DNA from: Solibacillus sp. FSL H8-0523
GTDB lineage: Bacteria; Bacillota; Bacilli; Bacillales_A; Planococcaceae
Reading direction: 5' to 3'
Length of the DNA: 64,000 nt
Assembly: GCF_038051985.1 (NCBI RefSeq)
Contig: NZ_CP150291.1
Span: forward strand, 310,001-374,000
The notes beneath the pieces are model-generated. The model ran no database searches and was not told where the DNA came from. It saw only the letters and a program-made list of their open reading frames with translations. The translations under genes were made by a program, and so were the position numbers. Each line of letters begins with the position of its first letter. Positions within the stretch are counted from its first letter, which is position 1. Below, one piece after another: positions 17,163-40,108 of this stretch.

Positions 17163-20033
17163 TTATTCTTCAACTAAATAATGATAAATATCGTATTGAA
17201 TTGGCTGCTCTAACACCATTTCCATCGTTACAACAGGGTGGTAAGCACCTTTATCGAAAATTTTATCTTCTTTTGCAGAAGTTGGATTGACCGTTCCGCG
17301 TCCAAGATAATAGAAGTCCTTGCCCTCACCGTTATCCTTTTTCACAAAGAGGTAAACATTTGTGCCGTTTGCAACAGAATTGATCAGAACTTGCATCTCT
17401 TTCGATTTAATATAGCGATTTTTAGTGGAGCACCATCTAAAGGCGTCAGTTGCTAAAAATTCATCCATATATTTTGTTTCAGTATCATTGTCATCATTTT
17501 TGTGATAGTTTACGAAAATTGGGAAGTCACCGCTTTTCGGACGACCGCCGTTTAGTGTACCTTCTTCGTTTTTATCCCAATCTAATAAACGACATACTTC
17601 ACGGCGCGAATATTTTTCATACAGCTTAAATGGCTCATGATTGTCATAGTTCGCATTCTTAATAAATGCACATGCAAGTAAATCCATAAAGTACTGTTTG
17701 AAATTCGAATCTTGAAGTGACAGTTCGAGTTCTTCATTAAAACGGTAGTGTGAATCCATTTTAATAATGACAGGCTTTTGGCCAAATTTCTTTTTATCAA
17801 CGTCTACGAAAAATTGTAGAGAAAAGACATTTTCAATACCCGCGATTGTGTCTTCGGAAATATAGGCATTCTCTTTTTTTAAAGCTGAGATGTATTCTTG
17901 TTCAGAAATGGATTCATTTTCTGCTAACAGCTTTAATAGCAAAATTTCATGAATTCGTTTGCCGGATAGAAAATCTTTACCGATTAGTGATAGCACTGAT
18001 TTTTCGTAATCTGTAATTGGGGCAATATCTGCCTTCATTTTTAATAAGAATTCATAATAAGTCGGAATATAACCAATAATTACTTCTGGATCTAACGAAT
18101 TTTGTTCAATAAAATCAGCTAATAATGGAATGCGCCCAATGCGATTTTTCACTTCTAAATAGCTATCTTTCAGTGTTTTTAACGTTGAGAGATTGGTATT
18201 CTTAATTGCATCGAAAATTTGTTTCTTTGCGATTTCCTCAAAGTTAATCGTTGAGATGCCTCGAATATAATCGGTATTTACCGTATTTCGGCGAACATTA
18301 TCCTTATTCATCGTTTTATCACCTGAAAGGGCAATCGGAATTAAATAGTTGTTTTTATAGTTGCCGATAAAATCGATAATCGCTACATAATCTTTAGTGT
18401 CATGCTTTCGCAAACCGCGACCAAGCTGCTGAATGAAGATAATGCTTGATTGTGTTTGGCGTAGCATGACGATTTGATTTAAAAATGGGATATCAATGCC
18501 TTCATTAAAAATGTCTACTGTAAGAATATAGTCTAACTCACCAGTTCGAAGTTGCTCGATCGCATGTTCGCGTGTTTCCTGTGAATCCTCACCAGTCAGG
18601 GCACATGTTTTCAACCCACGATGATTTAATATTTTCGAAAGCTCACGGGCTTCTTCTTTTTTACTACAGAACATTAATCCCTTCACGCGTGTTCCTGAAA
18701 AACCATAGTAGTCGATTTTTTCAAGAATATGCTCGACACGCTCTTTGACAATCAGCTTTTGTAAATCAGCAGTTTCGTCAATGACTTCCTCATCTTTTAT
18801 ATAATCGGTTACACCGAAATAGTGAAATGGGCAAAGCATGTCTTCCTCTAATGCTTCTTGCAGACGAATTTCATAGGCAATATTGTAATCAAATAGCTCA
18901 TAAATATTGAAGTTATCCGTACGCTCTGGTGTTGCGGTCATGCCGAGTAAAAATTGAGGCGTGAAATAATGAATGATTTTCAAATAAGATTCAGCACCAG
19001 CACGGTGAACTTCATCGATTAAAATGTAATCGAAATGGTCTTTTGCGAATTGCTGTAAATAAGGATCGCGCGACATGGTTTGTACGGTAGCGAATAAGTA
19101 ACGGGCATCCGTATTTTTCGACGTGCCGGATAAAATTCCGTAATCCTCATCGTTACCTAATAAAATTTTGCGATAGTCTGCCATAGCCTTTGTTAAAATT
19201 TGCTCGCGGTGTACAACGAATAGTAATCGCTTTGGCGCGGCATTTCGCACATCAAATGCGGAAAGATAGGTTTTTCCTGTGCCGGTCGCAGAAATAATGA
19301 GCCCTTTTTGAGCACCAGCTGCACGTAAGGCTTTTAATTGCTCTAATGCAGCGGTTTGCATTTTATTTGGTTGGATTAATAGGCTATCTTTTAATGGATT
19401 TGTCACATAAAGCGGCGTGGAAGCAACTTTTGAAGGCTGCTGCATATTTTCTAAATAAATAGGCTGATAAGACGCAATCCATTCTTCAGAGAGAATCGTT
19501 GCTTCGCTCCATGCTTGTTCATATTGATTTTTGAAATGCTGAATTATTTCGCCGTTTTCTAATGAATTTAAATAGACATTCCATTCGTAATTGGCTTTTA
19601 AAGCACTATCGGTAAGGTTTGAACTCCCTACGATTAATGAATAATACTCTTCGTGCTCGAAAATATAGCCCTTAGAATGAAACCCTTTAATATCCGTAAT
19701 TCGCACATCTACATTTGTTAGCTTTAGCAGCTCTTTAAACATTTTTGGCTGATTGAAATGCAGGAAAGTAGATGTTAAAATGCGACCCTTAATCCCTTTT
19801 TTCTGCAAATCATAGAGCATCGTTTTTAATGTAGCGAGACCACCTTCAGTAATGAATGCAACAGAGAAGGTGAACGACTTACACGTTTTCAATTCTTGTA
19901 AAAGAGTCGTTAATACATTTTCATGTGTTTTATTGGATAACAATTTTGGTTTAAAGTTTGAAGAAACAGCTCTATTTTGATCGATAAAACCTCTATATAA
20001 AGAGTTTTCAAGCTTCTTGATAATCTGCTCCAT
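17163..20033 (-). CDS. PLD nuclease-superfamily II helicase-DUF3427 fusion
   Basis: The 956-residue protein has three parts. Residues about 40-160 are a single phospholipase D-like (HKD) nuclease unit with HSKGYIF (His119, Lys121) and VGSSNLTDSALKANYEWNV. Residues about 225-560 are a DEAD/DEAH helicase: Walker A ATGTGKT (249-255), DEVH (340-343), GMTATPERTD, and QQLGRGLRKHD. The remaining 400 residues fit DUF3427. A single HKD unit implies dimerisation for cleavage. This architecture occurs widely beside defence genes. ATG 20033 has AAGGTGG 8 bases upstream; GTG 20045 is less likely. It follows the NUDIX gene by 21 bases, forming a two-gene operon. Confidence 0.85.
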   Translation of the reverse strand: MEQIIKKLENSLYRGFIDQNRAVSSNFKPKLLSNKTHENVLTTLLQELKTCKSFTFSVAFITEGGLATLKTMLYDLQKKGIKGRILTSTFLHFNQPKMFKELLKLTNVDVRITDIKGFHSKGYIFEHEEYYSLIVGSSNLTDSALKANYEWNVYLNSLENGEIIQHFKNQYEQAWSEATILSEEWIASYQPIYLENMQQPSKVASTPLYVTNPLKDSLLIQPNKMQTAALEQLKALRAAGAQKGLIISATGTGKTYLSAFDVRNAAPKRLLFVVHREQILTKAMADYRKILLGNDEDYGILSGTSKNTDARYLFATVQTMSRDPYLQQFAKDHFDYILIDEVHRAGAESYLKIIHYFTPQFLLGMTATPERTDNFNIYELFDYNIAYEIRLQEALEEDMLCPFHYFGVTDYIKDEEVIDETADLQKLIVKERVEHILEKIDYYGFSGTRVKGLMFCSKKEEARELSKILNHRGLKTCALTGEDSQETREHAIEQLRTGELDYILTVDIFNEGIDIPFLNQIVMLRQTQSSIIFIQQLGRGLRKHDTKDYVAIIDFIGNYKNNYLIPIALSGDKTMNKDNVRRNTVNTDYIRGISTINFEEIAKKQIFDAIKNTNLSTLKTLKDSYLEVKNRIGRIPLLADFIEQNSLDPEVIIGYIPTYYEFLLKMKADIAPITDYEKSVLSLIGKDFLSGKRIHEILLLKLLAENESISEQEYISALKKENAYISEDTIAGIENVFSLQFFVDVDKKKFGQKPVIIKMDSHYRFNEELELSLQDSNFKQYFMDLLACAFIKNANYDNHEPFKLYEKYSRREVCRLLDWDKNEEGTLNGGRPKSGDFPIFVNYHKNDDNDTETKYMDEFLATDAFRWCSTKNRYIKSKEMQVLINSVANGTNVYLFVKKDNGEGKDFYYLGRGTVNPTSAKEDKIFDKGAYHPVVTMEMVLEQPIQYDIYHYLVEE

Positions 20034-20054
20034 AAGCAATGCCACCTTAACTAA

Positions 20055-20450
20055 TTATTTTCTTAATTTTTCAACTGCTGGTAGATCTGCTGGTGCAAAT
20101 TCAAGTTCATGAAGAGCATCACGTTTTACCCATTTTGCTTCGGCATGTTCAAGTGCTACAGGAGTACCCGCGATGATTTTTGCCATATACGTTTCTAAAC
20201 GAACAACGAACGTGCCGTAATCATATGTAGTGTCTTCTACTTTATCGCCAACTGAAATCTCACAAGTGAATTCTTCCGAAATTTCACGTATCAATGCTTG
20301 TTGTGGTGTTTCATCGGCTTCGATTTTTCCACCAGGAAATTCCCATAAGTTCGGTAGTGACATTTTCGGGCTACGGAGCGCACAATAAATTTCTTGGTGC
20401 TCATTTTCAATAATTGCGCCAACAACGTGTACTTGTTTTTTCAAAATCAT
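20055..20450 (-). CDS. NUDIX hydrolase, MutT/8-oxo-dGTP diphosphatase-like
   Basis: The 131-residue protein starts ILKKQVHVVGAIIENEHQEI and contains a complete NUDIX box, GGKIEADETPQQALIREISEEF (GX5EX7REUXEEXGU pattern), preceded by LPNLWEFPGG typical of MutT and CTP pyrophosphohydrolases. Such enzymes remove damaged or modified nucleoside triphosphates. ATG 20450 follows AAGGTTAGGATGG; an in-frame upstream extension to 20573 has unlike composition and is rejected. Its tight linkage to the PLD-helicase gene suggests that it limits or feeds a nucleotide substrate related to that protein's action, but this is inference. Confidence 0.85.
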   Translation of the reverse strand: MILKKQVHVVGAIIENEHQEIYCALRSPKMSLPNLWEFPGGKIEADETPQQALIREISEEFTCEISVGDKVEDTTYDYGTFVVRLETYMAKIIAGTPVALEHAEAKWVKRDALHELEFAPADLPAVEKLRK

Positions 20451-20534
20451 CCATCCTAACCTTCTGTCTATTGTTATGTTGATTATAACATCTTCAATAG
20501 GAATATTTTCATATGAAATTCCTCCAAATATGTC

Positions 20535-20569
20535 AAAACCCCCGAACCAATCTAGGCTCAGGGGTTTCC
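20535..20569 (-). terminator. Terminator of the phage-derived remnant
   Basis: On the minus strand AACCCCTGAGCC pairs with GGTTCGGGGGTT (wobbles) followed by TTTG. It isolates the remnant from the NUDIX gene. Confidence 0.75.
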
Positions 20570-21066
20570 TCATCTTATATGAAAATCATATGCCACCCCA
20601 ACCCTCAGCACCCCGACAAATACCGGGAATTCCATCAGTCGCGCCTTTAAATCCAGAAAGTAAACCATTTCGCCTGAACCAAGCAGTAACTCTTGAAAGC
20701 GGTATTCCTTGTACACACGATGCCACTTTACGGCGAGGTCACCGAAATGCTGCTCGTGTAGCTTTTGTGCAGCAACGGGGTTTTCGGCAAAGTAGAAGGC
20801 CTACTTTTTTTCGTCATGGCAATGGAATTCCTTTGCCTGTGTGGCGTAGAGCTTAATGCGGTTGATGCCGAGCACGTCCTGTTGCTCCATGCGCCTGAGC
20901 TTCTCGAGTTCGGCATCGGTAAAGGGCACATCGTTAATGCTTTCGATGGGATCGTGCTTTTGCGGTAGCCCTTTGTTAGTGCGAGGTAAATCCGGTAGGC
21001 ACCGAAGTTTTGTTCATGCTTCACCATGTCCATGAGCAGCAGGTAGACGGTTGTTGGCTGTGTCAT
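20570..21066 (-). pseudogene. Broken phage-type gene (frameshift plus in-frame stop)
   Basis: The frame starts at ATG 21066, overlapping the previous stop (ATGA), and reads TTVYLLLMDMVKHEQNFGAY and LALTKGY. After about 35 residues sense continues in another frame: FTDAELEKLRRMEQQDVLGI, an in-frame TAG after HCHDEKK, then AFYFAENPVAAQKLHEQHFG and VKWHRVYKEYRFQELLLG to the stop near 20570. Both parts look like one ancestral protein of the type found in phage replication modules. At least one frameshift and one nonsense change make it non-functional. No function is known to me. Confidence 0.7.
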
Positions 21067-21255: not shown

Positions 21256-22047
21256 TTACCAATCCTCACCAGCACTATAATCAGGTTCAAACGGCTCCGG
21301 AAAACTGCACTGTACCATGTTGCGTGCGCGTGCTTCGTTTAAATAGCTCTCAAAATTCGAAGGGCGAAACAGCGTCATCGGGCGCAAATATTTTTCCATT
21401 TCTAAACTGCCGAGCCAGCATTGCGTTTGTTCATCAATGACGAGCTTGCAATCTTCCACCGTGTAGCCGTCATTGATGCGGCCGCTAATAAAATTGCGGT
21501 TAGCCTGCGTTTTGAGGCTGAAATGCTTACCAGTTTTTTCGTTAAGGTAGTTGAGCACCTCATCGATTTGCGCGGCAAGCTTGTTGGTATAGATCGCTTT
21601 GCTGCTTTGTTTTTTCTTTGTGTCGGTAGTTACTGGGAAGGCTTTACCACCATGCGATGAAAATGCGTTTGTGATCGCTTCTACTTCTTGTTCGCTGAGT
21701 GTTGTTTGGGCGATATAGGTGTGTAAGATGTGCTGCAATTTTTCGTAATCAATCGTGTACCATTTTGTGCGGTCCACAGAAAAGCGGTTGAACTTGTCCG
21801 TCGAGTAGACGATTCCTTCGTTTTCTAATTTGCGAATGCTGTGTTTGATTTTTGAGCTGCTCCAAAAAGGAAATTGCTTGTGCCAGCTGTCGAGCGATTG
21901 GCAGTACCAGGCTTCCTCGTTCCCCTTTGCTTTAATTGGCTGTAGGCGGTAATGGAGCTGTTGTAAGATCATCGCCTGCTCAAGTCCGAGCACGACACCG
22001 AGTAGTGGTAACGCCATCAATGGTTTTTCATTTGTGAGTAGTTGCAT
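21256..22047 (-). CDS. Phage replisome organiser-type protein (Phg_2220_C domain)
   Basis: The 263-residue protein has an N-terminal winged-helix region (LLGVVLGLEQAMILQQLHYR, then WHKQFPFWSSSKIKHSIRKL, KLENEGIVYS), typical of phage replication initiators. Its C-terminal domain VLNYLNEKTGKHF...NRNFISGRINDGYTVEDCKLVID...MEKYLRPMTLFRP.NFESYLNEA matches the phage-conserved domain TIGR02220/PF09524. It would recruit helicase to a phage origin. The gene looks intact, with AAGGAGG 7 bases before ATG 22047, but everything after it is degraded and no integrase, capsid or lysis genes are near, so it is probably a relic. Confidence 0.82.
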   Translation of the reverse strand: MQLLTNEKPLMALPLLGVVLGLEQAMILQQLHYRLQPIKAKGNEEAWYCQSLDSWHKQFPFWSSSKIKHSIRKLENEGIVYSTDKFNRFSVDRTKWYTIDYEKLQHILHTYIAQTTLSEQEVEAITNAFSSHGGKAFPVTTDTKKKQSSKAIYTNKLAAQIDEVLNYLNEKTGKHFSLKTQANRNFISGRINDGYTVEDCKLVIDEQTQCWLGSLEMEKYLRPMTLFRPSNFESYLNEARARNMVQCSFPEPFEPDYSAGEDW

Positions 22048-22505: not shown

Positions 22506-24185
22506 ATGGATAAAGTACTTGAAGCACGAGGTTTAAAGCTCAGAGAATATTTAGAAATTTCATATGGGATCATGAAAATCCCGTATACACAAAGACCGTA
22601 TGAATGGGGAAAACCACAAATTTCCCGTTTGTTTTATGATTTTTGTAATGTTTATGAAAATAAAGTAGACCAGCATATTTTGAACTTTATTACTTTGTTT
22701 AAAGAAAAGGATTTTGTAAATATTTATGATGGTCAACAGCGTACTGTTTCAACAATTCTTATTATTTGCGCGATTTTAAATAAATTAAAGCAAATTCCTA
22801 ATTTTGATCAAAGCTTCATTACGAAAGTGAAGCAGAAATATATTGTTGATAATGATTTATTTACAAGTGAAACAAAGTATAAGTTGTCGTTTGAAAAGCA
22901 AAAAACAAATGAATTTTTCCAAAGTTTCGTTATAGAGGGGAATCCTAATTCACTTGAACAAATGACAGATGAGCAAAAAGCATTAGAAACAAACTATATC
23001 GAAGTTTCAATGATGATTGATAAAACATTTTTGAATCGAGACCTAGCACATAGTTTAAAGGGTTTATTGCAGGCGATTCTTGAGCAAGTCCTTGTTATTG
23101 TACTGGAAACAACAAACGAGCAAATTGCTAATCAAATGTTTGAGACATTGAACAATACAGGTAAGAAAATTGCCGACTTTTACGTGTTGAAAAACCAGTT
23201 AGTTCGAGCACTGGGTGAAGATGATATTAAAAGCGAGTGGGATGAAATTGAGAAGAATTTAGATGGCATCAATAAAAATAAATTTTTAGTAGCATACGCC
23301 TCTACATTTAACGGCAAAACTTCTGAAGCGGGTGCCTATAAAGCAATTGAAAAAAATAATAAAATTGCAGATCAAAAACAGGCGAATATAACTTTAGCGG
23401 AATTAAAAAAAGCTTCAAAAACGTATTTATACCTAGATGCACCACGTATGCGCTATGACATTGATGAGGCGAATTCGAAACGTTACCAAGCTTTAGTTGA
23501 AACATTGGGTATGTTTTCAGCGCACCAATATAAGACGGTTGTTGTTGCAATGGAATTGAAGGGATATAGGTTAGAGACAGTAAATAATGTCATTCAAAAA
23601 CTCTTAAATTTACACATAAGAAATATTTTTATTTCACAAGCAGTAGCTAATACGTTAGAGCAATTTTATCCGGCACTGGCTCAAAAAATTTATTTAAATG
23701 ATTTTACTGAAGAAGAAGTCATCTTGGAAATTGAACAGAAAATGACGAAGGGCGAACTATTAAAGAATAACTTTAAAAATCGCCAGATAATCACGCCAAA
23801 CGATAAAAAGGCATTGAGATATATTCTACGTGAAATTTATAATTACGAAAATAAAGATGAGGTTAAGGTTTTTGAAGATGCCCAGCATGTAAATCTTGAA
23901 CATATTCTTCCGCAAACACCAAACAAATCAAGTGAGTGGCATGCGATCTTTGCGGTTGAAGAGGAAAGAGAAAAGTACACGCACAGTATCGGAAATATGA
24001 CCGTTTTATTAGGCACGAAAAATAGCAGTGGTGGTAACCAAGCCTTTGATGTGAAAAAGGAAATTTATAAAACGAGTGCAATTAAGCATAATCATCAAAT
24101 TGCAGAGCTTCTAATTTGGAATAAGCAAGCGATTGATAGCCGTGTAGATAACCTTTATACCGCATTTTTAAAGATTTGGAGTTAG
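22506..24185 (+). CDS. DUF262/DUF1524 protein, single-chain GmrSD-like restriction enzyme
   Basis: The 559-residue protein starts with a DUF262 (ParB/Srx-like NTPase) domain: KIPYTQRPYEWG at 24-35 and YDGQQRTVST at 74-83, the DGQQR motif being diagnostic. The C-terminus is a DUF1524 His-Me nuclease: NLEHILPQT and HSIGNMTVLLGTKNSSGGNQ with the conserved His and Asn residues. This pairing defines GmrSD-type enzymes that cut glucosylated or otherwise modified phage DNA in an NTP-dependent way; BrxU is a relative. ATG 22506 follows an AT-rich leader with a modest AGGAG-type site. A terminator separates it from the next operon. Confidence 0.85.
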   Translation: MDKVLEARGLKLREYLEISYGIMKIPYTQRPYEWGKPQISRLFYDFCNVYENKVDQHILNFITLFKEKDFVNIYDGQQRTVSTILIICAILNKLKQIPNFDQSFITKVKQKYIVDNDLFTSETKYKLSFEKQKTNEFFQSFVIEGNPNSLEQMTDEQKALETNYIEVSMMIDKTFLNRDLAHSLKGLLQAILEQVLVIVLETTNEQIANQMFETLNNTGKKIADFYVLKNQLVRALGEDDIKSEWDEIEKNLDGINKNKFLVAYASTFNGKTSEAGAYKAIEKNNKIADQKQANITLAELKKASKTYLYLDAPRMRYDIDEANSKRYQALVETLGMFSAHQYKTVVVAMELKGYRLETVNNVIQKLLNLHIRNIFISQAVANTLEQFYPALAQKIYLNDFTEEEVILEIEQKMTKGELLKNNFKNRQIITPNDKKALRYILREIYNYENKDEVKVFEDAQHVNLEHILPQTPNKSSEWHAIFAVEEEREKYTHSIGNMTVLLGTKNSSGGNQAFDVKKEIYKTSAIKHNHQIAELLIWNKQAIDSRVDNLYTAFLKIWS

Positions 24186-24213
24186 CCGTAATCTGTTGAA
24201 GATGTATTTACAA

Positions 24214-24249
24214 GCTGCTCAATAATCGTGAATTGAGTAGCCTTTTTTT
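24214..24249 (+). terminator. Intrinsic terminator after the DUF262 gene
   Basis: GCTGCTCAAT pairs with ATTGAGTAGC (one mismatch) across 8 bases, then T7. It suggests that the following GHKL operon has its own promoter or receives only read-through. Confidence 0.85.
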
Positions 24250-24279
24250 GAATAAAATTAAATGGTAGAGGTGAAATAG

Positions 24280-26202
24280 ATGATTGAACAACCGGAGCAA
24301 GCGGTATTTTGGAATTTCTCTCCTATTCCAAACATTGAAGAATCCAATTTTAACAAAGTGTTGGAACGATTTTATGGATTAGGGATTAAAGGACTGACAA
24401 AGGAAAATATTCAAAACTCATTAGATGGGCGTTTAAAGGATTGTGCACTTCCCGTCGTTGTAACGATTAAACTTGGAACGATTGATCAGTCGTATATACC
24501 TGGGATTGCAGATGTAAAGGCACATATTAAAAGCTTAAAGGGGCGTAATAGCTATACGGTAGAAACGATCGACCATATGGTAAAGCATATGGATAAAGAG
24601 CAAGTACGCTATGTATCGTTCGAGGATTTGAATACGAGAGGACTGACTGGCGCAAGAAATGGCCAAAGTAATTCGAAAGAGGATACGTGGGGCATTTATG
24701 CGTATAACAAAGGCGTTCACTTTGAGGAAAAGGACGAATCGTTTGAGACAACGCGTGGTGGTTCACATGGTATTGGTAAAATTGCTTCTAATGCGGCTTC
24801 AGATTTGCACCTGATGTATTTTGCAAACTGTGATGAAAAACAGGAGAAACATTTAGGTGGTACAGTGCAATTGATTGAACATGAATTTGAAGGGCAATGC
24901 TACCGCTCTTCGGGTTATTTTGCAAAAGTAGAGCAGCATGAGGGACAGTCAAAATTTTATCCGTATGAAAATGAATTCCGTGAAGTATTTCAGAAAAATG
25001 AGCGTGGTTTGAAAATTATTATTCCGTTTTTACGTAAAGAGTTTGACGATGAAAATGAAATCATCAAAACGATTTGCGATAACTTTTTCGTATCAATTTT
25101 GCAGGGCAATTTAGAAGTTCATGTGAATGATCATCAGCTAACAAAAGATACGATTCATACGTTTTTAGGAAATCCACGCTATTATGAGCAAACGCTGCAG
25201 GATATGAAAAAAGTGTTTACGCCGCTTTATTTTAAAACGTATTTAGAGCAAGAGCCAAAATCGATTACCGTCAATAACGGGGAAATGGATTTTGAATTTC
25301 AGCTATATTTTACATACAACGAAGCGATTCCTAAAGGTCGTGTAGGGATTGTTCGTACAATTGGGATGAAAATTGAAGATTTTAAAGTGAAGGCCAATGC
25401 CACAAAACCTTTCAATGCGGTGTTAATTGGTGGGCTAAAAGAAGATAAATACTTGAAGTCACTAGAAAACGAGTCGCACACGGAGATTTCTTCTGAGCAT
25501 ATAAAAGATGCCAAACTAAAAGCGCGAGCAACGCGTTTTATTAATAATTTATCAAAAGAGATTGCTAAAATAATTGATGATGAAATGCGTAAGAATAATC
25601 CGACTGATGAAGAGATGGATACAGGAGATTTAATTTATTTGATGGAATCGCAATTTAAATCAGATCTCGAAAAAGCAATGGGTTCGGTCAAAATTAAAAA
25701 TGGTAAATCCATTTTAAAAGCAACAACTAATAGCCAAAAAGAGAAAAAGGATAAGGGTGACCAACAGGGAACTGTGAAAACTGAAAAAACGGAAGTGAAA
25801 CGTGTTCCGAAAAAGACTCAAGTGGGTAACCAATCCGATCTCGATGAAACAGATGAGGCGAAAGAAACGTACCGCGTAAATCCAAATACAGTGGAACGCG
25901 TCATCATTCAAAATACGGAATACCTTCAATTTTTATTTACAGCGAACGAAGAGATGAAGAAAGTGAAAGACTGTAATATTATGATGCGCATAATAGATGG
26001 CACGGGAGAAGAATTTGAGGAAAGCTTTAGTTTAACGGAAAACTATCTTCAAATAGTGGATGTGCTTAAAGGAGCGTCTTGTAAGGTTACAGACAATAAA
26101 ATAACAGGTGTTTCCGTTCAAAAAGGACTAATAAAATTAAAATTGAATGTGCATCAAAATTATAACGATGCATTAAAATTCATTTACTACGTAGAGGTGT
26201 AA
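24280..26202 (+). CDS. GHKL (MutL/Hsp90-type) ATPase, first gene of an uncharacterised operon
   Basis: The 640-residue protein carries Bergerat-fold motifs: ENIQNSLDGR at 42-51 (N box, like MutL ELVENSLDA), VSFEDLNTRGLTG at 112-124 (G1-like Asp) and TRGGSHGIGKIASN at 158-171 (G2 glycine lid). A second region (about 230-470) has the mixed strands expected of a transducer, and a Lys/Glu-rich linker (about 480-525) leads to a C-terminal beta domain ending in FIYYVEV. There is no endonuclease, histidine-kinase or receiver motif. The partner genes follow with a 1-base gap and an overlap, so it probably works with them in one complex. Confidence 0.75.
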   Translation: MIEQPEQAVFWNFSPIPNIEESNFNKVLERFYGLGIKGLTKENIQNSLDGRLKDCALPVVVTIKLGTIDQSYIPGIADVKAHIKSLKGRNSYTVETIDHMVKHMDKEQVRYVSFEDLNTRGLTGARNGQSNSKEDTWGIYAYNKGVHFEEKDESFETTRGGSHGIGKIASNAASDLHLMYFANCDEKQEKHLGGTVQLIEHEFEGQCYRSSGYFAKVEQHEGQSKFYPYENEFREVFQKNERGLKIIIPFLRKEFDDENEIIKTICDNFFVSILQGNLEVHVNDHQLTKDTIHTFLGNPRYYEQTLQDMKKVFTPLYFKTYLEQEPKSITVNNGEMDFEFQLYFTYNEAIPKGRVGIVRTIGMKIEDFKVKANATKPFNAVLIGGLKEDKYLKSLENESHTEISSEHIKDAKLKARATRFINNLSKEIAKIIDDEMRKNNPTDEEMDTGDLIYLMESQFKSDLEKAMGSVKIKNGKSILKATTNSQKEKKDKGDQQGTVKTEKTEVKRVPKKTQVGNQSDLDETDEAKETYRVNPNTVERVIIQNTEYLQFLFTANEEMKKVKDCNIMMRIIDGTGEEFEESFSLTENYLQIVDVLKGASCKVTDNKITGVSVQKGLIKLKLNVHQNYNDALKFIYYVEV

Positions 26203-26203
26203 C

Positions 26204-27055
26204 ATGATTTACAAAAAAGATGCCAATTTCCCATATCCTATTTTGACAAATACGACATCAACCTATATGAATCCATATTTTTCACTAGACGTGAATTTGG
26301 AAGAAAATACTAATGCTTACCGTTTTGTACTGGATTATGAAATTAGTTCACCATTTATTAAAGAGCTAATTCATCAGTATAAAGCGACGGTTGTTTTTAT
26401 TATTCAGTCGAAAGATACACGTTTTGTAAAACTAGCACCAAACCAACGTTATGTAGATATAGAAAAATCCCGTATTTCGCTGAACAAACGCACATCGATT
26501 CAATTACAAATTCAGACGGCAGAAGATATTTCATTTGCCTTGAATGAGGATTTAACAGCCTTTTATGATCCATTTAAAGTGGATATTAAACTATGTCAAA
26601 ATAAGTTATTAGGTTATTCAAATGTCGTTGTTTTTGAAGGAAGCATACAGCAACCGCTTGTGTTATTTGAAAAGAAATTAGATGAAAATTTAACATCTGA
26701 TATTAAAATTGAACTCGGTACAGAAACGATTATTATTCATTATAAAAAGGCGGATTTCCAATTCAATGGCATGCGCAATAGCCGAGACTTTAATACGCCA
26801 TACTTGTATCTTGGAATGCAAAAAGCGCTTCAAAATTTCGTTAGTGAGTATGGTCGAGATGAGGGTGCTGTAGATTTAACACAAGTGGATGTACCTGAAA
26901 GTGGACTAGATTATAAACTATATAATTTAATGACAAAGAAAATGATTACTGAGGTTTCAACAGAAAATATTGACGAGGTCATTACGCTAATTTCTGAAAA
27001 ATTGATTGAGAAATATTCAGCAGCAGTAAGGGAGCTTGATCAAAATGGAGATTAG
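26204..27055 (+). CDS. Unknown protein, second gene of the GHKL operon (283 aa)
   Basis: I recognise no family. The protein is soluble with alternating short hydrophobic strands in its first 190 residues (KATVVFIIQSKDTRFVKLAP, VVVFEGSIQQPLVLFEKKL, IKIELGTETIIIHYKKADFQ), suggesting two beta-rich domains, and a helical C-terminal third. No metal-binding, Walker or nuclease motif is visible. ATG 26204 is one base after the ATPase stop, with AGAGGTG at the right distance, so it is translationally coupled. Its repetitive beta character and obligatory linkage suggest a structural or DNA/effector-sensing subunit. Confidence 0.75.
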   Translation: MIYKKDANFPYPILTNTTSTYMNPYFSLDVNLEENTNAYRFVLDYEISSPFIKELIHQYKATVVFIIQSKDTRFVKLAPNQRYVDIEKSRISLNKRTSIQLQIQTAEDISFALNEDLTAFYDPFKVDIKLCQNKLLGYSNVVVFEGSIQQPLVLFEKKLDENLTSDIKIELGTETIIIHYKKADFQFNGMRNSRDFNTPYLYLGMQKALQNFVSEYGRDEGAVDLTQVDVPESGLDYKLYNLMTKKMITEVSTENIDEVITLISEKLIEKYSAAVRELDQNGD

Positions 27056-27821
27056 ATTATTAAAGAGTGGTTATAAAAATAATGAACAATTTTATTTGGA
27101 TTTTTTAGAGGATAAAATTATAGGGAATGAAGATTATTTTTCGGATAATTATGTGACCGTTTCACAAATTCCGGACTTTCCAGTTTATATGGGTAGGGGA
27201 TCAGCAAAAGAGCGTAATGAAGATTTCTTAACAGCTCTCCAAATTATTGCGAAATATTATATTGTTTTGGATCGCGATTTGCATTTTGATGAAGTATTTT
27301 GGCATTCGCTTCTTGTACTAAAAAAACGCGACTATATTTTAAAGAATTATCCGAGTGTAAAAGAAAGCAATAGTGATTTTAAAAATATTGTAATCAAGAA
27401 ATTCGACTGGGAAAACTATATTTATAAATGTGTACTAGCAGCAGAATATATTGAAGATATAGGTGAAACAGTAGAGCAAAAAAATTACCTCTATCATTTA
27501 GTTTTAGAAAACCTAGATGTATTTAATTATATTATTAAGTATCCGATTTTCCGCAACGCCGAATTTACGGTGAAAATTTTAACCATTATTGACGAATTAG
27601 ATATTTCAAAAATTATGAAAGCGTATATCCCGGATCGTCCAGATTTGGGTAAAGATCCACGTTATGGTCGCCAAGTAATTTACGAGTTAAACAAAAATTA
27701 TCCGATTGTCATGGCACCAATGATGGACAAAGAGGAACTTAAAGTAGAAGTATTAAAAGCTTTAAGTTACTACTATGATATTTCAGCTATTCAAGATCAA
27801 TTAATTTCATTAAATCAATAA
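27045..27821 (+). CDS. Unknown protein, third gene of the GHKL operon (258 aa)
   Basis: I recognise no family with confidence. The protein looks mostly helical, with many Tyr, Asp and Asn residues; segments include IIAKYYIVLDRDLHFDEVFW, KKFDWENYIYKCVLAAEYIE and LNKNYPIVMAPMMDKEELK. No catalytic signature is visible. The start ATG 27045 lies 10 bases after AAGGGAG and overlaps the previous gene by 11 bases; TTG 27036 is too close to that site. It completes a three-gene cassette with the GHKL ATPase. Confidence 0.72.
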   Translation: MEIRLLKSGYKNNEQFYLDFLEDKIIGNEDYFSDNYVTVSQIPDFPVYMGRGSAKERNEDFLTALQIIAKYYIVLDRDLHFDEVFWHSLLVLKKRDYILKNYPSVKESNSDFKNIVIKKFDWENYIYKCVLAAEYIEDIGETVEQKNYLYHLVLENLDVFNYIIKYPIFRNAEFTVKILTIIDELDISKIMKAYIPDRPDLGKDPRYGRQVIYELNKNYPIVMAPMMDKEELKVEVLKALSYYYDISAIQDQLISLNQ

Positions 27822-27929
27822 TAAGTACCGCCCTGATATCTAATTAGGTCGGTGTACGTTTTAATTGCTGTGCTAATGCAAATAATTCCTCAGCTGCAAC
27901 TTTTCCTTGCGGGGGAGGAGGTGATTGAT

Positions 27930-28028
27930 TTGACTTTAAATCTACGTGATCCCAGGCGTGCATATTACCCATCTGGTGTCAGTGCATCAAATCCTGCGTA
28001 TGCAGCAGCGCGTGATGGGGACAAATAA
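27930..28028 (+). CDS. Micro-protein (32 aa) with perfect ribosome site and own terminator
   Basis: AGGAGGTGA (27916-27924) is 5 bases before TTG 27930, which encodes MTLNLRDPRRAYYPSGVSAS and a further 12 residues ending DGDK. An in-frame ATG at 27876 would add 18 residues but has no site. A strong terminator begins at the stop codon, so this has the full layout of a short gene. The peptide is rich in Ala, Arg, Tyr and Pro; I know no family. Secretion or toxicity is not indicated. Confidence 0.55.
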   Translation: MTLNLRDPRRAYYPSGVSASNPAYAAARDGDK

Positions 28029-28064
28029 AGCGGGCTTTCTCATCTTGAGAAGCCCGCTATTTTT
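28029..28064 (+). terminator. Strong terminator after the 32-aa gene
   Basis: AGCGGGCTTTCTC pairs with GAGAAGCCCGCT and is followed by ATTTTTAT. Confidence 0.9.
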
Positions 28065-28137
28065 ATAGCTTAAACCGCTGTACTTATGAACTTCATCGGC
28101 TATATAAAGCCTAGCCTTTAGGAAATTCAAAATGTAT

Positions 28138-28857
28138 TTATTCTGCTGTGTGTAAACGTCTCAGTCTCCAGCCACAGAGTAAAAAAGCAAGGGTGATTGT
28201 AATGATTAACGGTGCAATGGACCAGAATTCCCATTCGGTGCTGCTTAAATTGATAAAGCCCCATGTTGCAGGGAAAATCCCTCCAATCGATTGTAAAACC
28301 CTTGGTAGCATATCCACTGGGAACATAATCCCCGACAGCATAATAGATGGTAAAAAGATTAGCTGTGACACCATTGTTAATTTTGTTGTACTTTTTACAG
28401 TCAATCCTAGTATTGTTCCAATAGAAAGAGAAGCAATAATGAAGAGTTCAAGTGTAACAAAATACATGAAAAGGTTAGAAGGCATACTGGCATCAAAAAT
28501 AAAGAGTGCCAGTATAAATAGCAGGATGCTCATAAGAGAAAGATGAATTATCCCTGAAACAAAATTATTAACGAATCCCGTCCAAAGAGGTATCCCGCCG
28601 ACTTTATAAGCTTTTTTCATCTCACTATTATAGAGTTCAACAAGAGGTGCAGGCGTACCTAGAAGGGCACCCATTGACACACCAAAAACGGTCATGGATT
28701 GGATAAGTGTTTGATAAGCAGTCGGATTGATGGAAGTAAAGATGCCACTCATAAAGATAAAGAATAATAATGGAATGATATAGTACGTGAGAAGAATCCC
28801 TTTATCTCGAAAATCTAATCGCCATTGTAGGCCAATCCCATAAAGAAATGCGCTCAT
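28138..28857 (-). CDS. ABC-2 type transporter permease
   Basis: The 239-residue membrane protein has about six hydrophobic segments, beginning with ILLTYYIIPLLFFIFMSGIF and including QLIFLPSIMLSGIMFPVDMLP, the segment typical of ABC-2 permeases (drug, lipid or antibiotic export). Its ATG 28857 overlaps the stop of the upstream ATPase gene by 4 bases, so the two form one exporter. The substrate is unknown; DrrB- and NatB-type resistance exporters are related. No response regulator lies next to it, so regulation by a bacitracin-type two-component system is not suggested. Confidence 0.85.
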   Translation of the reverse strand: MSAFLYGIGLQWRLDFRDKGILLTYYIIPLLFFIFMSGIFTSINPTAYQTLIQSMTVFGVSMGALLGTPAPLVELYNSEMKKAYKVGGIPLWTGFVNNFVSGIIHLSLMSILLFILALFIFDASMPSNLFMYFVTLELFIIASLSIGTILGLTVKSTTKLTMVSQLIFLPSIMLSGIMFPVDMLPRVLQSIGGIFPATWGFINLSSTEWEFWSIAPLIITITLAFLLCGWRLRRLHTAE

Positions 28858-29931: not shown

Positions 29932-29996
29932 TGTTGCGTAAGAGTTATATCTTCTTTTGATATTATCATATTAATAATTTGAAAGGGGTTTTTACA

Positions 29997-30476
29997 ATGG
30001 ACGGTAATTTATTAAGAAAGGCTTTTGGAAAGTTCCCGACAGGTGTAACAGTTGTGACTTGGTTTGATGGAGATGGGATTAATGGAATTACGGTAAATTC
30101 ATTTACATCGGTGTCACTAGAGCCACCACTTGCGCTTGTGTCGATTGATAAAAAAGCAAATTCATATGAACAGCTACAAAATAAACCTTTCACGATTAAT
30201 GTATTAGCGGATGATCAAGAGGCGATTGCATGGCAGTTTGCGGGGCGTCCTCAAGAAGGATTGGATATTCTTTGGAACGAAGAGGGCGATTCGCCAAGCA
30301 TTGATGGTGCGTCAGGCTATTTTAAATGCAAGCAGTGGCAGCAATATGATGCAGGGGATCATGTGCTGTTTGTTGGAGAGATTACAGCGTTCGATCATCA
30401 AAGCGGTAATTCATTAACATTCTTTGAAGGCAAGATGGGGTCAACAGAGACATATAAAAGCCAAGAAGTGCAATAA
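29997..30476 (+). CDS. Flavin reductase component of a two-component monooxygenase (HpaC type)
   Basis: The 159-residue protein is a short-chain flavin reductase: [17 protein letters not shown] at the N-terminus, [20 protein letters not shown] for flavin binding and [11 protein letters not shown] with the conserved Gly-Asp-His near the NAD site. It supplies reduced FAD or FMN to the hydroxylase encoded 17 bases downstream. ATG 29997 has AAAGGGG 8 bases upstream; TTG 29979 is in frame but lies before that site. It is the first gene of the catabolic operon. Confidence 0.87.
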
Positions 30477-30493
30477 ATTTAAAGGGAGTGTAT

Positions 30494-31975
30494 GTGGTGG
30501 GGATTCGTACTGGAGCACAATATATCGAAGCGTTAAAGTCGCGTAAACCAGAAGTTTGGTTGAATGGGAAAATCGTAGAAAACATTTTGGATGAGCCATA
30601 TTTTAAACAACCAGCATTAGAGATTGCGAAGCTGTATGATATGCAGCATGATCCAGCATATCAAGAGGATTTATCAGTGTTGTGCGAAGAAACGGGTGAG
30701 CGTATCGCGACATCGTTTTTAATGCCACGCAATTACGAGGATATTATGAAGCGTAGTAAGGCGTTTGAAATTGTAGCACGCCAAACGTTTGGACTAATGG
30801 GCCGTACGCCAGATTTCTTAAATACAGTTGTGACATCATTAGCGCAAAATTCTTGGTTTTTACGTAAATACAACGAAGATTGGGCAACGAATATTGAAAA
30901 CTACTATAAGCATTTACGTGATAATGATATTTTTTTAACGCATGCGATTGTAAACCCACAAAATGACCGTAGTAAAAATTCGCATGAGCAGGCAGATCAG
31001 TTTACGCATCTTGGGGTTGTTGAGGAGCGGGCTGAAGGGATTATTGTACGCGGGGCAAAAATGTTAGCAACGTTAGCAGCATTAACGGATGAAGTAATTA
31101 TTTATTCATTCCCAGGTTTTGCGCCTGGCGATGAGCGTTATGCACTAGCATTTGCTGTACCGGTTGATGTCAAAGGTTTGAAAATTATTTGTCGTGAGCC
31201 AGTGCAAGACGGTACACGTTCGACATTTGATCACCCACTTGCATCGCGCTATGAAGAAATGGACGCGCTCCTCGTTTTTGAGGATGTACTTGTTCCTTGG
31301 GATAAAGTATTCCTTTACAACAATGTAGAAGCAGCGAACCTGCTGTATCCTATGACGGGTATTGCCGAGCAACCAGCACATCAATCAGGTGTACGCGGCT
31401 ATATTAAGCTGAAGTTTGCGGTAGAGGTTGCATGTAAAGTGGCAGATTCGATTGGAGCAGACCAATATTTACACGTGCAACGCGATTTAGGTGAATTAAT
31501 TCAAAATACAGAGGTTATTCGTTCGCTACTGCGCACAGCAGAGCATGAATATACGATTACAGAGCATGGCGAGGCACGTTTGAATCCAGTCGTACTAGAA
31601 ACAATTCGCGGCATGATGCCGGACATGTATCCACGCACAATTGAAGTAATGCAGGCAATTGGGGCAGGCGGATTGCTTATGATGCCAACAGAAGCGGACT
31701 TTTTAAGTGAAGAGCTACGCCCAACAATCGATCGTCATTACGGTGGACGTGCAGGTATCGATGCAGAGGCACGCATGAAAATCTTCAAGTTGGCCTGGGA
31801 TTTATGTGGCGAGGCGTTTGGTATGCGTGCATTACAGTATGAGCGCTACTACACAGGTGATCCAGTTCGTAAACGCGCAATTTTTTACAATAAGTATAAA
31901 AAGGATCATTCACCTGATTTAGCCAATGCGATTTTATCGAAGGAAGATACGGTAAAACAGCCACAAACAAACTAA
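30494..31975 (+). CDS. Flavin-dependent aromatic hydroxylase (HpaB family), probable anthranilate 3-monooxygenase
   Basis: The 493-residue protein belongs to the 4-hydroxyphenylacetate 3-hydroxylase family: [20 protein letters not shown] at the start, [12 protein letters not shown] and [16 protein letters not shown] (FAD-binding region), and the family C-terminal [22 protein letters not shown] related two-component enzyme of Geobacillus thermodenitrificans hydroxylates anthranilate to 3-hydroxyanthranilate. Since the next enzymes begin with 3-hydroxyanthranilate dioxygenase, this substrate is the most likely here. Start is GTG 30494 or 30497 behind AAAGGGAG. It lies between the reductase and the regulator. 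Confidence 0.82.
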
Positions 31976-31991
31976 TCAGGAGGTAATGGGA

Positions 31992-32741
31992 ATGATCGCT
32001 TCTGTTAGTAAAATGGCACAAATTATTGATTTGTTTTTTGAAAGTGAGTCAGCTTTGTCCAACAAACGAATTGCAGAAATGCTAGATCTCCCTGTTAGCT
32101 CTGTACATCATTTTTTAAAGACGATGTGCGAGGAAAATATTTTAATGCAAGATAAAAATCGTAAATATCGCCTTGGCTGGCGCATTTTAGAGTGGAGTAA
32201 CAAAGTAATGTACCAGCAAGAGATGAATGAAAAGGTTGCGCCGATTGCTGCAAATCTAGTGAATCGTTTTAAAGGTAGCGTTCACGTAGGGATGTTTGAT
32301 AACGGCCAAGTGCGTTTCATCTTTAAAAGTGTTTCGCCTCATACGGGTGTATTGCCGACATATATCGGCGTAACGCGCTTTCCAGCTCATGCGACAAGCA
32401 TCGGCAAAGTGTTGCTTGCCTATAACCCCTCTTTTGTGAAGGCGGTTGAGCAGCATGGGATGCAAAAGTTTACAAAAAATACGATTTCGGATATTGGCGT
32501 TTTAAAGAAGGAACTACAAGTCATCCATAAACAGGGCTTTGCTGTGAGCAACGGTGAAAATGAGACGGGTACATTCGGAATCGCTGCACCAATTAAAAGC
32601 TATAGTGGGCAAGTTATTGCGGCATTCAACTTCGTATGTGCTGTCGATTACATTCAGGAACATAATTTTCAGCTTATTTTAAATGAGGTTATCCGCTCTG
32701 CGCAGATTATATCGCGCGAGATTGGCTATATAACGTTTTAA
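31992..32741 (+). CDS. IclR-family transcriptional regulator
   Basis: The 249-residue protein has an N-terminal winged helix (ASVSKMAQIIDLFFESESAL, LSNKRIAEMLDLPVSSVHHF with recognition helix) and a C-terminal effector-binding GAF-like domain including VRFIFKSVSPH, FPAHATSIGKVLLAY and GFAVSNGENETGTFGIAAPI, all standard in IclR proteins. It is probably the local regulator, responding to anthranilate, 3-hydroxyanthranilate or a ring-cleavage product. ATG 31992 is 8 bases from AGGAGG; ATG 31986 is only 2. Being third in the operon, it would be autoregulated. Confidence 0.88.
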   Translation: MIASVSKMAQIIDLFFESESALSNKRIAEMLDLPVSSVHHFLKTMCEENILMQDKNRKYRLGWRILEWSNKVMYQQEMNEKVAPIAANLVNRFKGSVHVGMFDNGQVRFIFKSVSPHTGVLPTYIGVTRFPAHATSIGKVLLAYNPSFVKAVEQHGMQKFTKNTISDIGVLKKELQVIHKQGFAVSNGENETGTFGIAAPIKSYSGQVIAAFNFVCAVDYIQEHNFQLILNEVIRSAQIISREIGYITF

Positions 32742-32743
32742 AC

Positions 32744-32804
32744 TGCTTATGCGATTAGCTTACGCAATCCATCTAGGAAGCTAAGTAAGCCAAAGCGCAT
32801 AGCA
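32744..32804 (+). promoter_or_regulatory. Long imperfect dyad between the IclR gene and the dioxygenase gene
   Basis: TGCTTATGCG with GCTTAC on the left mirrors GTAAGC with CGCATAGCA on the right (inner and outer arms both pair). There is no T tail. It may be a processing hairpin that sets apart the downstream messages or a second regulator site. Confidence 0.5.
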
Positions 32805-32827
32805 CATAAAAAATAGGAGGTTTTACA

Positions 32828-33385
32828 ATGAACAATTCAACTGAAGTAAGCAAAATGCAAGCACGTGCTCAAGATATTTGGAAAATCATCGAGGAAAATA
32901 AGGATTTATTAAAGCCACCAGTAAACAATACAGTGCTATGGAATGATTCTCAGTTTTTAGTGATGTTAGTTGGTGGTCCAAACGCACGTCGTGAATTCCA
33001 TGTGAGCCCTTCAGATGAAATTTTCTACCAAGTAAAAGGCTCTTGCTATGTTGAAATTATTAACGACGAAAATAAACGTGAAGTAATCGAAGTAAAAGAA
33101 GGCGAAATGTTTGTATTACCAGGCAACGTACCGCATTCTCCGCACCGGGTAGCTGAAACATACGGCATCGTAATTGAATATAAACGTAAAGAAGGCGAAT
33201 TAGAAGACTTGGTATGGTTATGTGAAAAATGCGATCACGAAGTACATCGTGTCACGTTACAAGTAACAAATATCGGGCAACAAATTGCAGATGGTATTGC
33301 AATTTTTAACGGATCAGAAGAATTACGTACGTGCAATGAATGCAGCCATGTAATGTCTGAGAAAGTTGAGGAATGGCAAGTATGA
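32828..33385 (+). CDS. nbaC: 3-hydroxyanthranilate 3,4-dioxygenase
   Basis: The 185-residue cupin protein opens the ring of 3-hydroxyanthranilate to 2-amino-3-carboxymuconate 6-semialdehyde. It has VLVGGPNARREFHVSPSDEIFY, giving the Arg and the Fe(II) ligands His and Glu, then GEMFVLPGNVPHSPHR with the third ligand His. The C-terminus carries two CxxC pairs (WLCEKCDHE and RTCNECSHV) that form the rubredoxin-like second metal site of bacterial and fungal enzymes. Length fits. It starts the ring-cleavage block and overlaps the next gene (ATGA). Confidence 0.93.
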   Translation: MNNSTEVSKMQARAQDIWKIIEENKDLLKPPVNNTVLWNDSQFLVMLVGGPNARREFHVSPSDEIFYQVKGSCYVEIINDENKREVIEVKEGEMFVLPGNVPHSPHRVAETYGIVIEYKRKEGELEDLVWLCEKCDHEVHRVTLQVTNIGQQIADGIAIFNGSEELRTCNECSHVMSEKVEEWQV

Positions 33386-34386
33386 GAATCGACTTCCACA
33401 CGCACATTTATCCGTTGAATTTACCAAATTTCGCACAGAAGTTTGGCAATGATAAATGGCCAGTAATGGAGCAAAAATGCTCTTGTGGCGCGGATATTAT
33501 GGTAAGTGGTAATCTGTTTCGCGAAGTAACAGACCAAGTGTGGGATCCGAAAAAGCGCATTGGGGATATGGAAAAGGAAGGCGTCGATATGCAAGTAATC
33601 TCTCCTGTACCCGTAACCTTTTCGTACTGGGCACCGGTAGAGCAAGCGCTTGAAATGGCACAATTCCAAAATGACTTCATCGCGGAGACAGTGAAGGAAT
33701 ATCCGGCGCATTTTATTGGTTTAGGTACAGTGCCATTGCAAGATGCAGAGACAGCGATTGAAGAAATGCGTCGTTGCAAGGAGCTTGGCTTAACTGGTAT
33801 TGAAATCGGTACAAATGTTAATGGTGAAAATTTAGATGCAGACTATTTGCTACCGTTTTTCCAAGCGGCGGAGGAGCTAGAAATGTCGCTCTTTATCCAC
33901 CCGTGGGAAACGATGGCGAAAGATCGCACACCACGCCATAACTTTATGTACACAGTAGGTATGCCGAGCGAAACAGCTCTTGCAGCTGCGAGTTTAATAT
34001 GGAGTGGCGTGATGGAAAAATGTCCGAACCTCAAAGTCTGTTTTGCACATGGTGGCGGGTCATTTGCCTATATTTTACCTCGCTTAGATCAAGGGTGGGA
34101 AGTATGGCCACATTTACGTCTGACAGAACATCCACCAAGCTATTATGCGAAAAAGTTTTACTTCGATTCACTCGTATATGACAAAGACAATTTTGCCTTT
34201 TTATTAGAGCGCTTTGGCCATGACAAAATTATTATGGGCTCGGATTATCCGTTCTTACTACGTGAAATCAATCCAGGTAAGGTCGTAGAGGAATCGCTAC
34301 AGCTTTCAGACGAAGTGAAGAGGGCTGTGCTTGGTGAAAATGCCCGACAGTTTTTAAATTTAGCAAAGAGTGGTGTGAGTAAATAA
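33382..34386 (+). CDS. nbaD: 2-amino-3-carboxymuconate 6-semialdehyde decarboxylase (ACMSD)
   Basis: The 334-residue amidohydrolase begins MRIDFHTHIYP, the HxH metal pair, and continues with FIHPWE, VCFAHGGGSFAYILPRLDQG (His) and IIMGSDYPF (metal Asp), matching zinc-dependent ACMSD. It decarboxylates the unstable dioxygenase product to 2-aminomuconate semialdehyde, preventing cyclisation to quinolinate. ATG 33382 overlaps the dioxygenase stop, with GAGG 9 bases upstream; ATG 33373 in frame is less well placed. The next gene starts in the last base of its stop, so the block is tightly coupled. Confidence 0.92.
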   Translation: MRIDFHTHIYPLNLPNFAQKFGNDKWPVMEQKCSCGADIMVSGNLFREVTDQVWDPKKRIGDMEKEGVDMQVISPVPVTFSYWAPVEQALEMAQFQNDFIAETVKEYPAHFIGLGTVPLQDAETAIEEMRRCKELGLTGIEIGTNVNGENLDADYLLPFFQAAEELEMSLFIHPWETMAKDRTPRHNFMYTVGMPSETALAAASLIWSGVMEKCPNLKVCFAHGGGSFAYILPRLDQGWEVWPHLRLTEHPPSYYAKKFYFDSLVYDKDNFAFLLERFGHDKIIMGSDYPFLLREINPGKVVEESLQLSDEVKRAVLGENARQFLNLAKSGVSK

Positions 34387-34847
34387 TGGTGAATGAAACA
34401 CAAACGCCAGAATTGCAATTGGAGAAGCTAGGCATTACGCTCGGCACGCCACGTTCAGCAGTTGGAAATTATGTAAGCTGTGTACGCGCAGGAAATTTAA
34501 TTTTCACATCGGGACAGGGTGTTGACCAATATTACGGTAAGCTTGGTGCGGATTTAACAGTTGAGGATGGGTATGCGGCATCACGTCAATCAATGATTAA
34601 CTTACTTACAGTGTTGAAGCATGAGTTAGGTGATTTATCGAAGGTGAAGCGCATTGTGAAAATTTTAGGAATGGTCAATTCTACTCCTGACTTTACGCAG
34701 CAGCCAAAGGTGATGAATGGTGCATCGGATTTACTTGTCGAAGTGTTTGGCGAAAAAGGAAAGCATGCACGTTCGGCAGTAGGGATGGCGCAGTTACCAA
34801 ATAATACAGCAATCGAAATCGAAATGATTGTTGAGATAGAAGAATAA
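34386..34847 (+). CDS. Rid/YjgF-family protein, probable 2-aminomuconate deaminase
   Basis: The 153-residue protein has the Rid fold features GNYVSCVRAGNLIFTSGQGV and LVKHELGDLSKVKRIVKILG-like segments with the conserved SAVGMAQLPNNTAIEIEMI at the end (Arg preceding it binds carboxylates). In Pseudomonas the 2-aminomuconate deaminases of this pathway belong to this family. In this position it would release ammonia from 2-aminomuconate to give 4-oxalocrotonate. The ATG shares a base with the ACMSD stop. A generic enamine deaminase role is the alternative. Confidence 0.82.
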   Translation: MVNETQTPELQLEKLGITLGTPRSAVGNYVSCVRAGNLIFTSGQGVDQYYGKLGADLTVEDGYAASRQSMINLLTVLKHELGDLSKVKRIVKILGMVNSTPDFTQQPKVMNGASDLLVEVFGEKGKHARSAVGMAQLPNNTAIEIEMIVEIEE

Positions 34848-34857
34848 CAGCACGTAT

Positions 34858-34908
34858 GGCAGCTTAAAGGAAGTAATAGTTTCATCTTCTTTGAGGCTGC
34901 CTTATTTT
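34858..34908 (+). terminator. Hairpin inside the catabolic operon (attenuator or stabiliser)
   Basis: GGCAGCTTAAAGGAAG pairs with CTTCTTTGAGGCTGCC allowing wobbles, followed by TTATTTTA. It lies between the deaminase and dehydrogenase genes and could reduce read-through. Confidence 0.6.
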
Positions 34909-34955
34909 ATCCAGACGTAAAGCGAGGTGAATCCTGCACGAAGGTGTAGGAAAAC

Positions 34956-36416: not shown

Positions 36417-36432
36417 AAGTAGGTGACGCACA

Positions 36433-37212
36433 ATGAGTGTAAATTTAATTGAATGGTCTAGTAAAATTTCGCAAGCAGAAAAAACGCGTCAAGGCATCGC
36501 GCCGTTGACGGAGCAAATCGACAGCTTAAGTTTGAAGGATGCCTATTCGATTCAGCTTGAACAAGTACATCGTAAAGTAAATGAAGGTGACCGCATTACG
36601 GGTAAAAAAATTGGCTTAACATCGCTCGCAATGCAACAACTGCTAAAAGTAGATGAACCAGACTATGGGCATTTGCTGGAATCGATGGCTATTCCAAACA
36701 ATGTGCTCGACTGTAGTGAGTGCATAAAGCCACGTGTAGAGGCAGAAATTGCGTTCATTATGAAAGAGGACTTAATCGGCCCGAATGTCACGTTAGAGCA
36801 AGTACTTGCTGCAACTGATTATGTCGTTGCAAGTCTCGAAGTCGTCGATAGCCGCATTAAAGATTGGAAAATCAAACTGCTTGATACGATTGCGGACAAT
36901 GCATCATCAGCCAAATATGTGTTAGGTGAGGAAAAGAAGCGGGTCGATGAGATTGATTTACCAGCAGTGGAAATGAATTTCTATAAAAATGGTGAACTGA
37001 TCAATAGCGGTAAAGGGACAGATGTATTAGGCAATCCGGCAGCTTGTGTTGTGTGGCTTGTAAACCGTTTAGCTGATTTTAATATTGGGTTGAAAAAGGG
37101 TGAAGTGATTTTATCGGGCGCTCTATCTGCCGCACTTGATGCAAGCCCAGGGGACGAATTTGTAGCGGACTTCGGTGAAATACTCGGAAAAGTTCAACTA
37201 AGCTGTCGCTAA
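36433..37212 (+). CDS. 2-oxopent-4-enoate hydratase (fumarylacetoacetase-like family)
   Basis: The 259-residue protein belongs to the MhpD/XylJ group: [20 protein letters not shown], then [15 protein letters not shown] (metal-binding Glu pair), [25 protein letters not shown] and [15 protein letters not shown]. It adds water to 2-oxopent-4-enoate to form 4-hydroxy-2-oxovalerate. A paralog of similar length at 39121-39894 is more like the decarboxylase, and in such pathways both form a complex. The assignment of which is which rests on position and motif memory. GTAGGTGACG precedes ATG 36433. Confidence 0.82.
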
Positions 37213-37223
37213 TAGGAGGTTCT

Positions 37224-39894: not shown

Positions 39895-39907
39895 CGGTGA
39901 TCACCAT

Positions 39908-40108
39908 ATGCCAATTGTACAAATCCAATTATTAGAAGGTCGCAGTGCGGAACAAAAACGACACATTATTTATGAAATGACGGAGACGCTTGCACGAGTT
40001 GCTGACGCTCCGAAAGAAAGCATTCGCATCATAATTCAAGAAATCCCATTAGATCATTGGGGTATCGCGGGTGAGACGATGACCGAGTATCGAAAAAACA
40101 AAGGATAA
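39908..40108 (+). CDS. 4-oxalocrotonate tautomerase family protein
   Basis: The 66-residue protein begins MPIVQIQLLEGRSAEQKRHI; removal of Met exposes Pro1, the catalytic base, and the Arg at position 11-12 and RIIIQEIPLDHWGIAG segment match 4-oxalocrotonate tautomerases. It interconverts 2-hydroxymuconate and 2-oxo-3-hexenedioate to feed the decarboxylase. Length is standard. A GGTGATCACC site precedes the ATG. It is the last pathway enzyme before the transporter genes. Confidence 0.9.
   Translation: MPIVQIQLLEGRSAEQKRHIIYEMTETLARVADAPKESIRIIIQEIPLDHWGIAGETMTEYRKNKG

Follow-up and report, generated by a model that had tools for sequence, protein, structure and literature searches.

A conserved three-gene unit with a paraMORC2-type GHKL ATPase in Solibacillus sp. 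FSL H8-0523, a sister branch of the candidate defence kind PDC-M33

We identified three closely packed genes, A, B and C, in a 64,000-nucleotide stretch of the Solibacillus sp. FSL H8-0523 genome (the window, G000:C1:310001-374000; positions given are those of the window). The three are confirmed as a real conserved unit, beyond chance, and the unit is almost certainly of the paraMORC2/PDC-M33 type. The genome is a single contig of 4.14 megabases with one copy of A. An earlier interpretation made from the sequence alone (the sequence-only reading) had proposed the cassette as a candidate undescribed defence system. The part concerning a conserved unit sited in defence islands stands. However, the kind is not undescribed, as A matches PDC-M33A, B matches PDC-M33B and the ExxxH motif of paraMORC2 is present. 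The genes are arranged as follows.

24280..26202, plus strand: gene A, an open frame of 640 residues, identified by a PADLOC PDC-M33A match, alignment and conservation
26204..27055, plus strand: gene B, 283 residues, a homologue of PDC-M33B
27045..27821, plus strand: gene C, 258 residues, a remote relative of DUF6339 / PDC-M33C

A single base separates A from B, and the ATG of C at 27045 produces an 11-base overlap with the end of B; these coordinates, the gap and the overlap had been given exactly from the letters alone. An in-frame TTG lies 9 bases upstream of this ATG.

Loci carrying A were collected from plasmids, genomes and viral contigs. There are 104 such loci, 100 of them distinct after near-duplicates (L068, L069, L086 and L094) are dropped. 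Because the genome scan used the best 80 of 336 relatives, the set leans to close relatives. Complete A, B and C are found in 93 of the 100 distinct loci. When the 261 genomes of the family to which the window belongs were searched for C independently of A, it was detected in 17 and intact in 15, and all 15 intact copies lie 843–859 bases behind A. The remaining two are a broken copy beside A in G537 and a 40-residue remnant without A in G010. A three-gene unit conserved across genomes, which the sequence-only reading had named as support, is observed, and in these family genomes every intact C is linked to A. The ATPase itself occurs in 34 of the 261 family genomes: 16 copies are full-length (51–100% identity), one is at a contig edge, one is a remnant and 16 are distant. 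Among 88 loci in which A exceeds 550 residues and B and C each exceed 200, the distances of the three proteins are strongly correlated (r 0.81–0.98; 0 of 999 permutations, in sets of 57 and 31 loci).

The product of gene A matches the PADLOC model PDC-M33A over its full length (E 1.4e-57, profile positions 4–615 of 627). Its motifs, with conservation scored over 100 distinct homologues, are listed here.

25465..25479, plus strand: ExxxH motif, E396-x3-H400; E396 in 98 of 98 and H400 in 98 of 98; the published paraMORC2 mark (PMC2292703)
24403..24432, plus strand: N box, residues 42–51, ENIQNSLDGR; E42, Q45, N46 and D49 each in 99 of 99
24625..24645, plus strand: G1 box, D116-x-NT-x-GL, residues 116–122; D116 and G121 in 100 of 100
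24751..24792, plus strand: glycine-rich ATP lid, residues 158–171, TRGGSHGIGKIASN; G161, S162, G164 and G166 in 100 of 100

Within the ATP lid, K167 is present in 99 of 100 homologues. We take the N box to bind ATP and Mg, with E42 as the predicted general base. The Bergerat-fold motifs of the sequence-only reading (N box, D116 and glycine lid) were placed correctly and are conserved at 99–100%. Judged by its length and motifs, the protein would carry a transducer domain of S5 fold behind the GHKL domain, and the ExxxH stretch would belong to this S5 portion. A low-complexity charged linker spans approximately residues 460–535 and is followed by a C-terminal domain. According to passages of the 2008 description by Iyer, Abhiman and Aravind (PMC2292703), ExxxH is the defining motif of paraMORC2. 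It is absent from the corresponding region in two Mza-like GHKL proteins.

The partners had been described as assignable to no family, which holds for C insofar as it lies outside all M33C models. B, however, matches PDC-M33B (E 7.4e-13, residues 7–146 only). It consists of an N-terminal beta sandwich (approximately residues 1–147) with an Ig/FN3-like arrangement and a mixed helical C-terminal part. The predicted model of C (predicted local distance difference test score, 93.9) is all-helical except for two short strands and has no match in fold searches of the PDB. C also has no match to PADLOC M33C up to E 1, and its score against Pfam DUF6339 (PF19866), 16.4 bits, is under the curated cut-off of 23.2. 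Its remote kinship is seen in profile-profile comparison with DUF6339-type C proteins (probability 84, E 7.6e-6, 228 columns). Three window-type C proteins tested have no Pfam family above cut-off, and one tested has no NCBIfam name. C proteins of the window branch share many invariant polar and aromatic residues; across both branches the only invariant residues are W86 and N216 in C and P12 in B. No nuclease family or signature was detected in A, B or C by these searches.

In L034, L037, L039, L044, L051, L063 and the near-copy L086, C is fused at its 3' end to a domain of approximately 80 residues, which also occurs at the C-terminus of ZorC (Zorya type I) and in a 1608-residue protein of L021.

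The tree of A follows the type of C. It includes 97 of the 100 loci (A longer than 550 residues), and the loci with window-type C lie on one side of one branch (Shimodaira-Hasegawa-like approximate likelihood ratio test, 99; length, 3.12 changes per column; 0 of 500 shuffles), with some long-branch rows unsure. This applies above all to L028, a hybrid-like locus. The window-type branch accounts for 60 of the 100 distinct loci. Its third gene marks a gap in the catalogue, missed by the M33C models in all 46 proteins tested (0 of 46 matched at E 0.001).

In part of the DUF6339 branch, A is preceded by a gene for a conserved protein of 73–105 residues. It is encoded directly upstream of A in L018, L025, L027, L097, L100, L110, L111, L113, L114 and L116 and one gene further away in L109, and the copy in L029 is far from A. 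The window has no such gene in front of A. One copy has one weak PHROGs match with no function assigned.

The surroundings of the cassette had been described as an island of restriction-type genes, and the two genes below agree with this description; both are given as context only.

22506..24185, plus strand: GmrSD-type modification-dependent nuclease gene (DUF262 + DUF1524); Pfam GmrSD_N/GmrSD_C, HEC-06
17163..20045, minus strand: type IV methyl-directed restriction enzyme gene (PLD + helicase + DUF3427); PADLOC mREase_IV 1.4e-291 and Pfam

Across loci, restriction and defence genes are likewise enriched among the neighbours. The upstream census covers 96 of 100 loci, namely the ones whose stretch holds a gene of 100 residues or more, and the downstream census 95 of 97, with L031 and L092 omitted; neighbour clusters were built from 101 loci, without L114–L116. 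Distances of neither the GmrSD cluster (22 loci, r -0.08) nor the type IV enzyme cluster (37 loci, r -0.06) show co-evolution with A. In addition, the 20-kilobase stretch of the nearest relative, L019, contains A, B, C and the type IV enzyme cluster and lacks the GmrSD cluster genes. From this non-co-evolution and from L019, no single nuclease is fixed beside the unit.

Several other genes were noted in these neighbourhoods. In the window a NUDIX gene adjoins the type IV enzyme gene on the same strand (17163–20573); its cluster occurs in 12 of 100 distinct loci, including L019, and the representative matches PADLOC PDC-S07. Between the NUDIX and GmrSD genes, at 21256–22047, lies a phage-type replication initiation protein gene (PHROG 428, 3.3e-48; Phg_2220_C), perhaps a phage trace. 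A protein of 98–147 residues, often starting with MPIYNKLVRDKIPEII or similar, is found in 26 loci (for example L074:5507-5836) and is presumably MazG-like; 20 of 27 copies are within 300 bases of a type IV enzyme cluster gene, and the one copy scanned has no Pfam match. Farther downstream, at 29979–44168, a plus-strand gene run resembles by eye an aromatic ring-degradation cluster, with genes that we take to encode a flavin reductase, a monooxygenase, an IclR-type regulator, a cupin dioxygenase and an amidohydrolase.

One feature was identified between the GmrSD gene and A.

24214..24241, plus strand: terminator-like hairpin with T run, the sole match in a scan of 24150–28160

The cassette had been placed behind a terminator and credited with its own leader. 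The hairpin is present, in a scan where shuffles give 2.5 matches by chance compared with the one found. The leader is unsupported, because no sigma-70-type promoter match occurs in 24150–24280 and the sequence upstream of A shows no conservation among six aligned sequences. By eye, the start of A at 24280 is preceded by a ribosome-binding-like AGAGGTGAAATAG. Behind C, at approximately 27930–28060, we noted by eye a very short open frame that has GGAGGAGGTGATT as its strong ribosome-binding-like site. After this frame come a GC-rich hairpin, which is absent from the terminator scan list, and a T run.

The unit is best explained as accessory and horizontally mobile. It probably functions in defence, and its three products probably form a complex. 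We propose that it may be a mobile immune unit acting by ATP-gated DNA clamping with B and C as partners, a statement that as a whole is plausible and falls somewhat short of probable. The proposal rests on the conserved unit, the co-evolution of the three genes, the intact ATPase motifs, the defence-gene surroundings and the lack of a detected nuclease family. A would be an ATP-gated dimer in which the GHKL heads close upon ATP binding (E42 for hydrolysis, D116 and the glycine lid), and the closed dimer would trap foreign DNA. B (beta sandwich) and C (helical) would bind A and either recruit it to the target or license it there, as loader or sensor. Phage replication or expression would then be blocked through clamping or looping of DNA, without a nuclease of the unit's own. 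Clamping without cleavage is a rather tentative element of this scheme. In a fuller version, which we regard as doubtful, the immune complex would contain no nuclease and would silence invader DNA by using ATP to entrap or compact it, as a bacterial counterpart of eukaryotic MORC transposon silencing; B and C would be specificity and loading factors, and the window branch a second subtype whose third gene is missed by the defence-gene models tested.

Several observations weigh against this proposal. All three proteins are acidic (isoelectric points 5.8 for A, 4.9 for B and 5.0 for C), a property that does not favour B or C as simple DNA binders. Seven of the 100 loci (L016, L028, L071, L087, L092, L109 and L115) lack a recognizable B, C or both; L016 is at a record end, some are truncated, and in some the neighbour is missing or too diverged for recognition. 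For the C5-methylase neighbours, present in 20 loci of this analysis, the correlation with A is weak (r 0.27, 2 of 999 permutations), and a partnership with a modification enzyme may exist in some loci. The defence neighbours could reflect co-residence only, and the missing nuclease signature means only that no match turned up, which proves nothing by itself. Finally, no experiment on the unit or a relative, phage tests included, was found in the literature examined.

The same polar and aromatic residues of C bear on an alternative in which A senses infection and unleashes a toxicity that resides in B or C, as in abortive infection. With a confident model that has no fold match and with so many invariant positions in the window branch, C could be an unrecognized enzyme. 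However, the three residues invariant across both branches are unlike a conserved active site, and the first half of B is beta-sandwich-like. We consider abortive infection unlikely. A role as a non-immune accessory of DNA maintenance or repair that lives in variable islands appears more improbable still. ParaMORCs resemble MutL, passages of PMC2292703 allow repair roles for some of them, and the literature examined holds no phage test. Such a role, however, fits poorly with the patchy spread of the unit (a close A of full length in 16 of 261 family genomes, and A in 9 of 398 phylum genomes, counting the one that holds the window), with copies on plasmids and viral contigs, with remnant or broken copies in G010, G622 and G537, and with the enrichment beside restriction genes.

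The unit provides a paraMORC2 ATPase with two closely linked partners, many natural copies and clear targets for point mutation (E42, and E396/H400). If it is true that the unit protects without its own nuclease, this would be a new class of immunity by DNA clamping. A proposal of 2008 derives the MORC chromatin ATPases of eukaryotes from prokaryotic relatives of MORC (passages of PMC2292703). Beyond that proposal we found no literature on paraMORC2, and none on PDC-M33 or DUF6339 in a search that lay outside bioRxiv and most subscription journals. Among the titles and abstract starts listed for the GHKL and anti-phage literature, 20 at a time, none reveals such a unit, nor do the portions consulted of PMC3710099, PMC11514479 and PMC8011034.

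Among known systems, a MORC-type ATPase within a defence operon of several genes is a shared feature. Mza lacks this gene set according to the sequence-only reading; AIPR has no match in nine window proteins scanned, including the cassette and the GmrSD neighbour, and PF10593 has no match in the genome. The GHKL-Shedu protein VcSduA (paraMORC3) is similar in that a GHKL hydrolysis residue is required for phage defence, according to passages of PMC12137116. However, its ATPase is fused there to a DUF4263 nuclease, and A has no Pfam match to this PD-(D/E)xK domain. ParaMORC2 as presented in parts of PMC2292703 shares the GHKL motifs, the ExxxH behind the ATPase domain, a sporadic distribution in Gram-positive bacteria and restriction-type neighbours; that text names no dedicated B and C partners, and its figures show uncharacterized domains. 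The closest likeness is to PDC-M33, from lists that originate with Payne et al. (passages of PMC12988326 and PMC11811056). The three genes and their order are the same, A and B of the window match M33A and M33B, and the DUF6339-type C of the sister locus L025 matches M33C at 2.1e-58. However, C of the window branch is missed by every M33C model, and A of the window is only approximately 18–27% identical to the DUF6339-type (M33) branch. Since its C is not recognized as M33C and is related by profile-profile comparison only, we file the window as a sister branch of PDC-M33 and not as a strict member. PDC-M33 is already listed as a candidate defence kind, and the window is a well-separated subtype, not categorically new.
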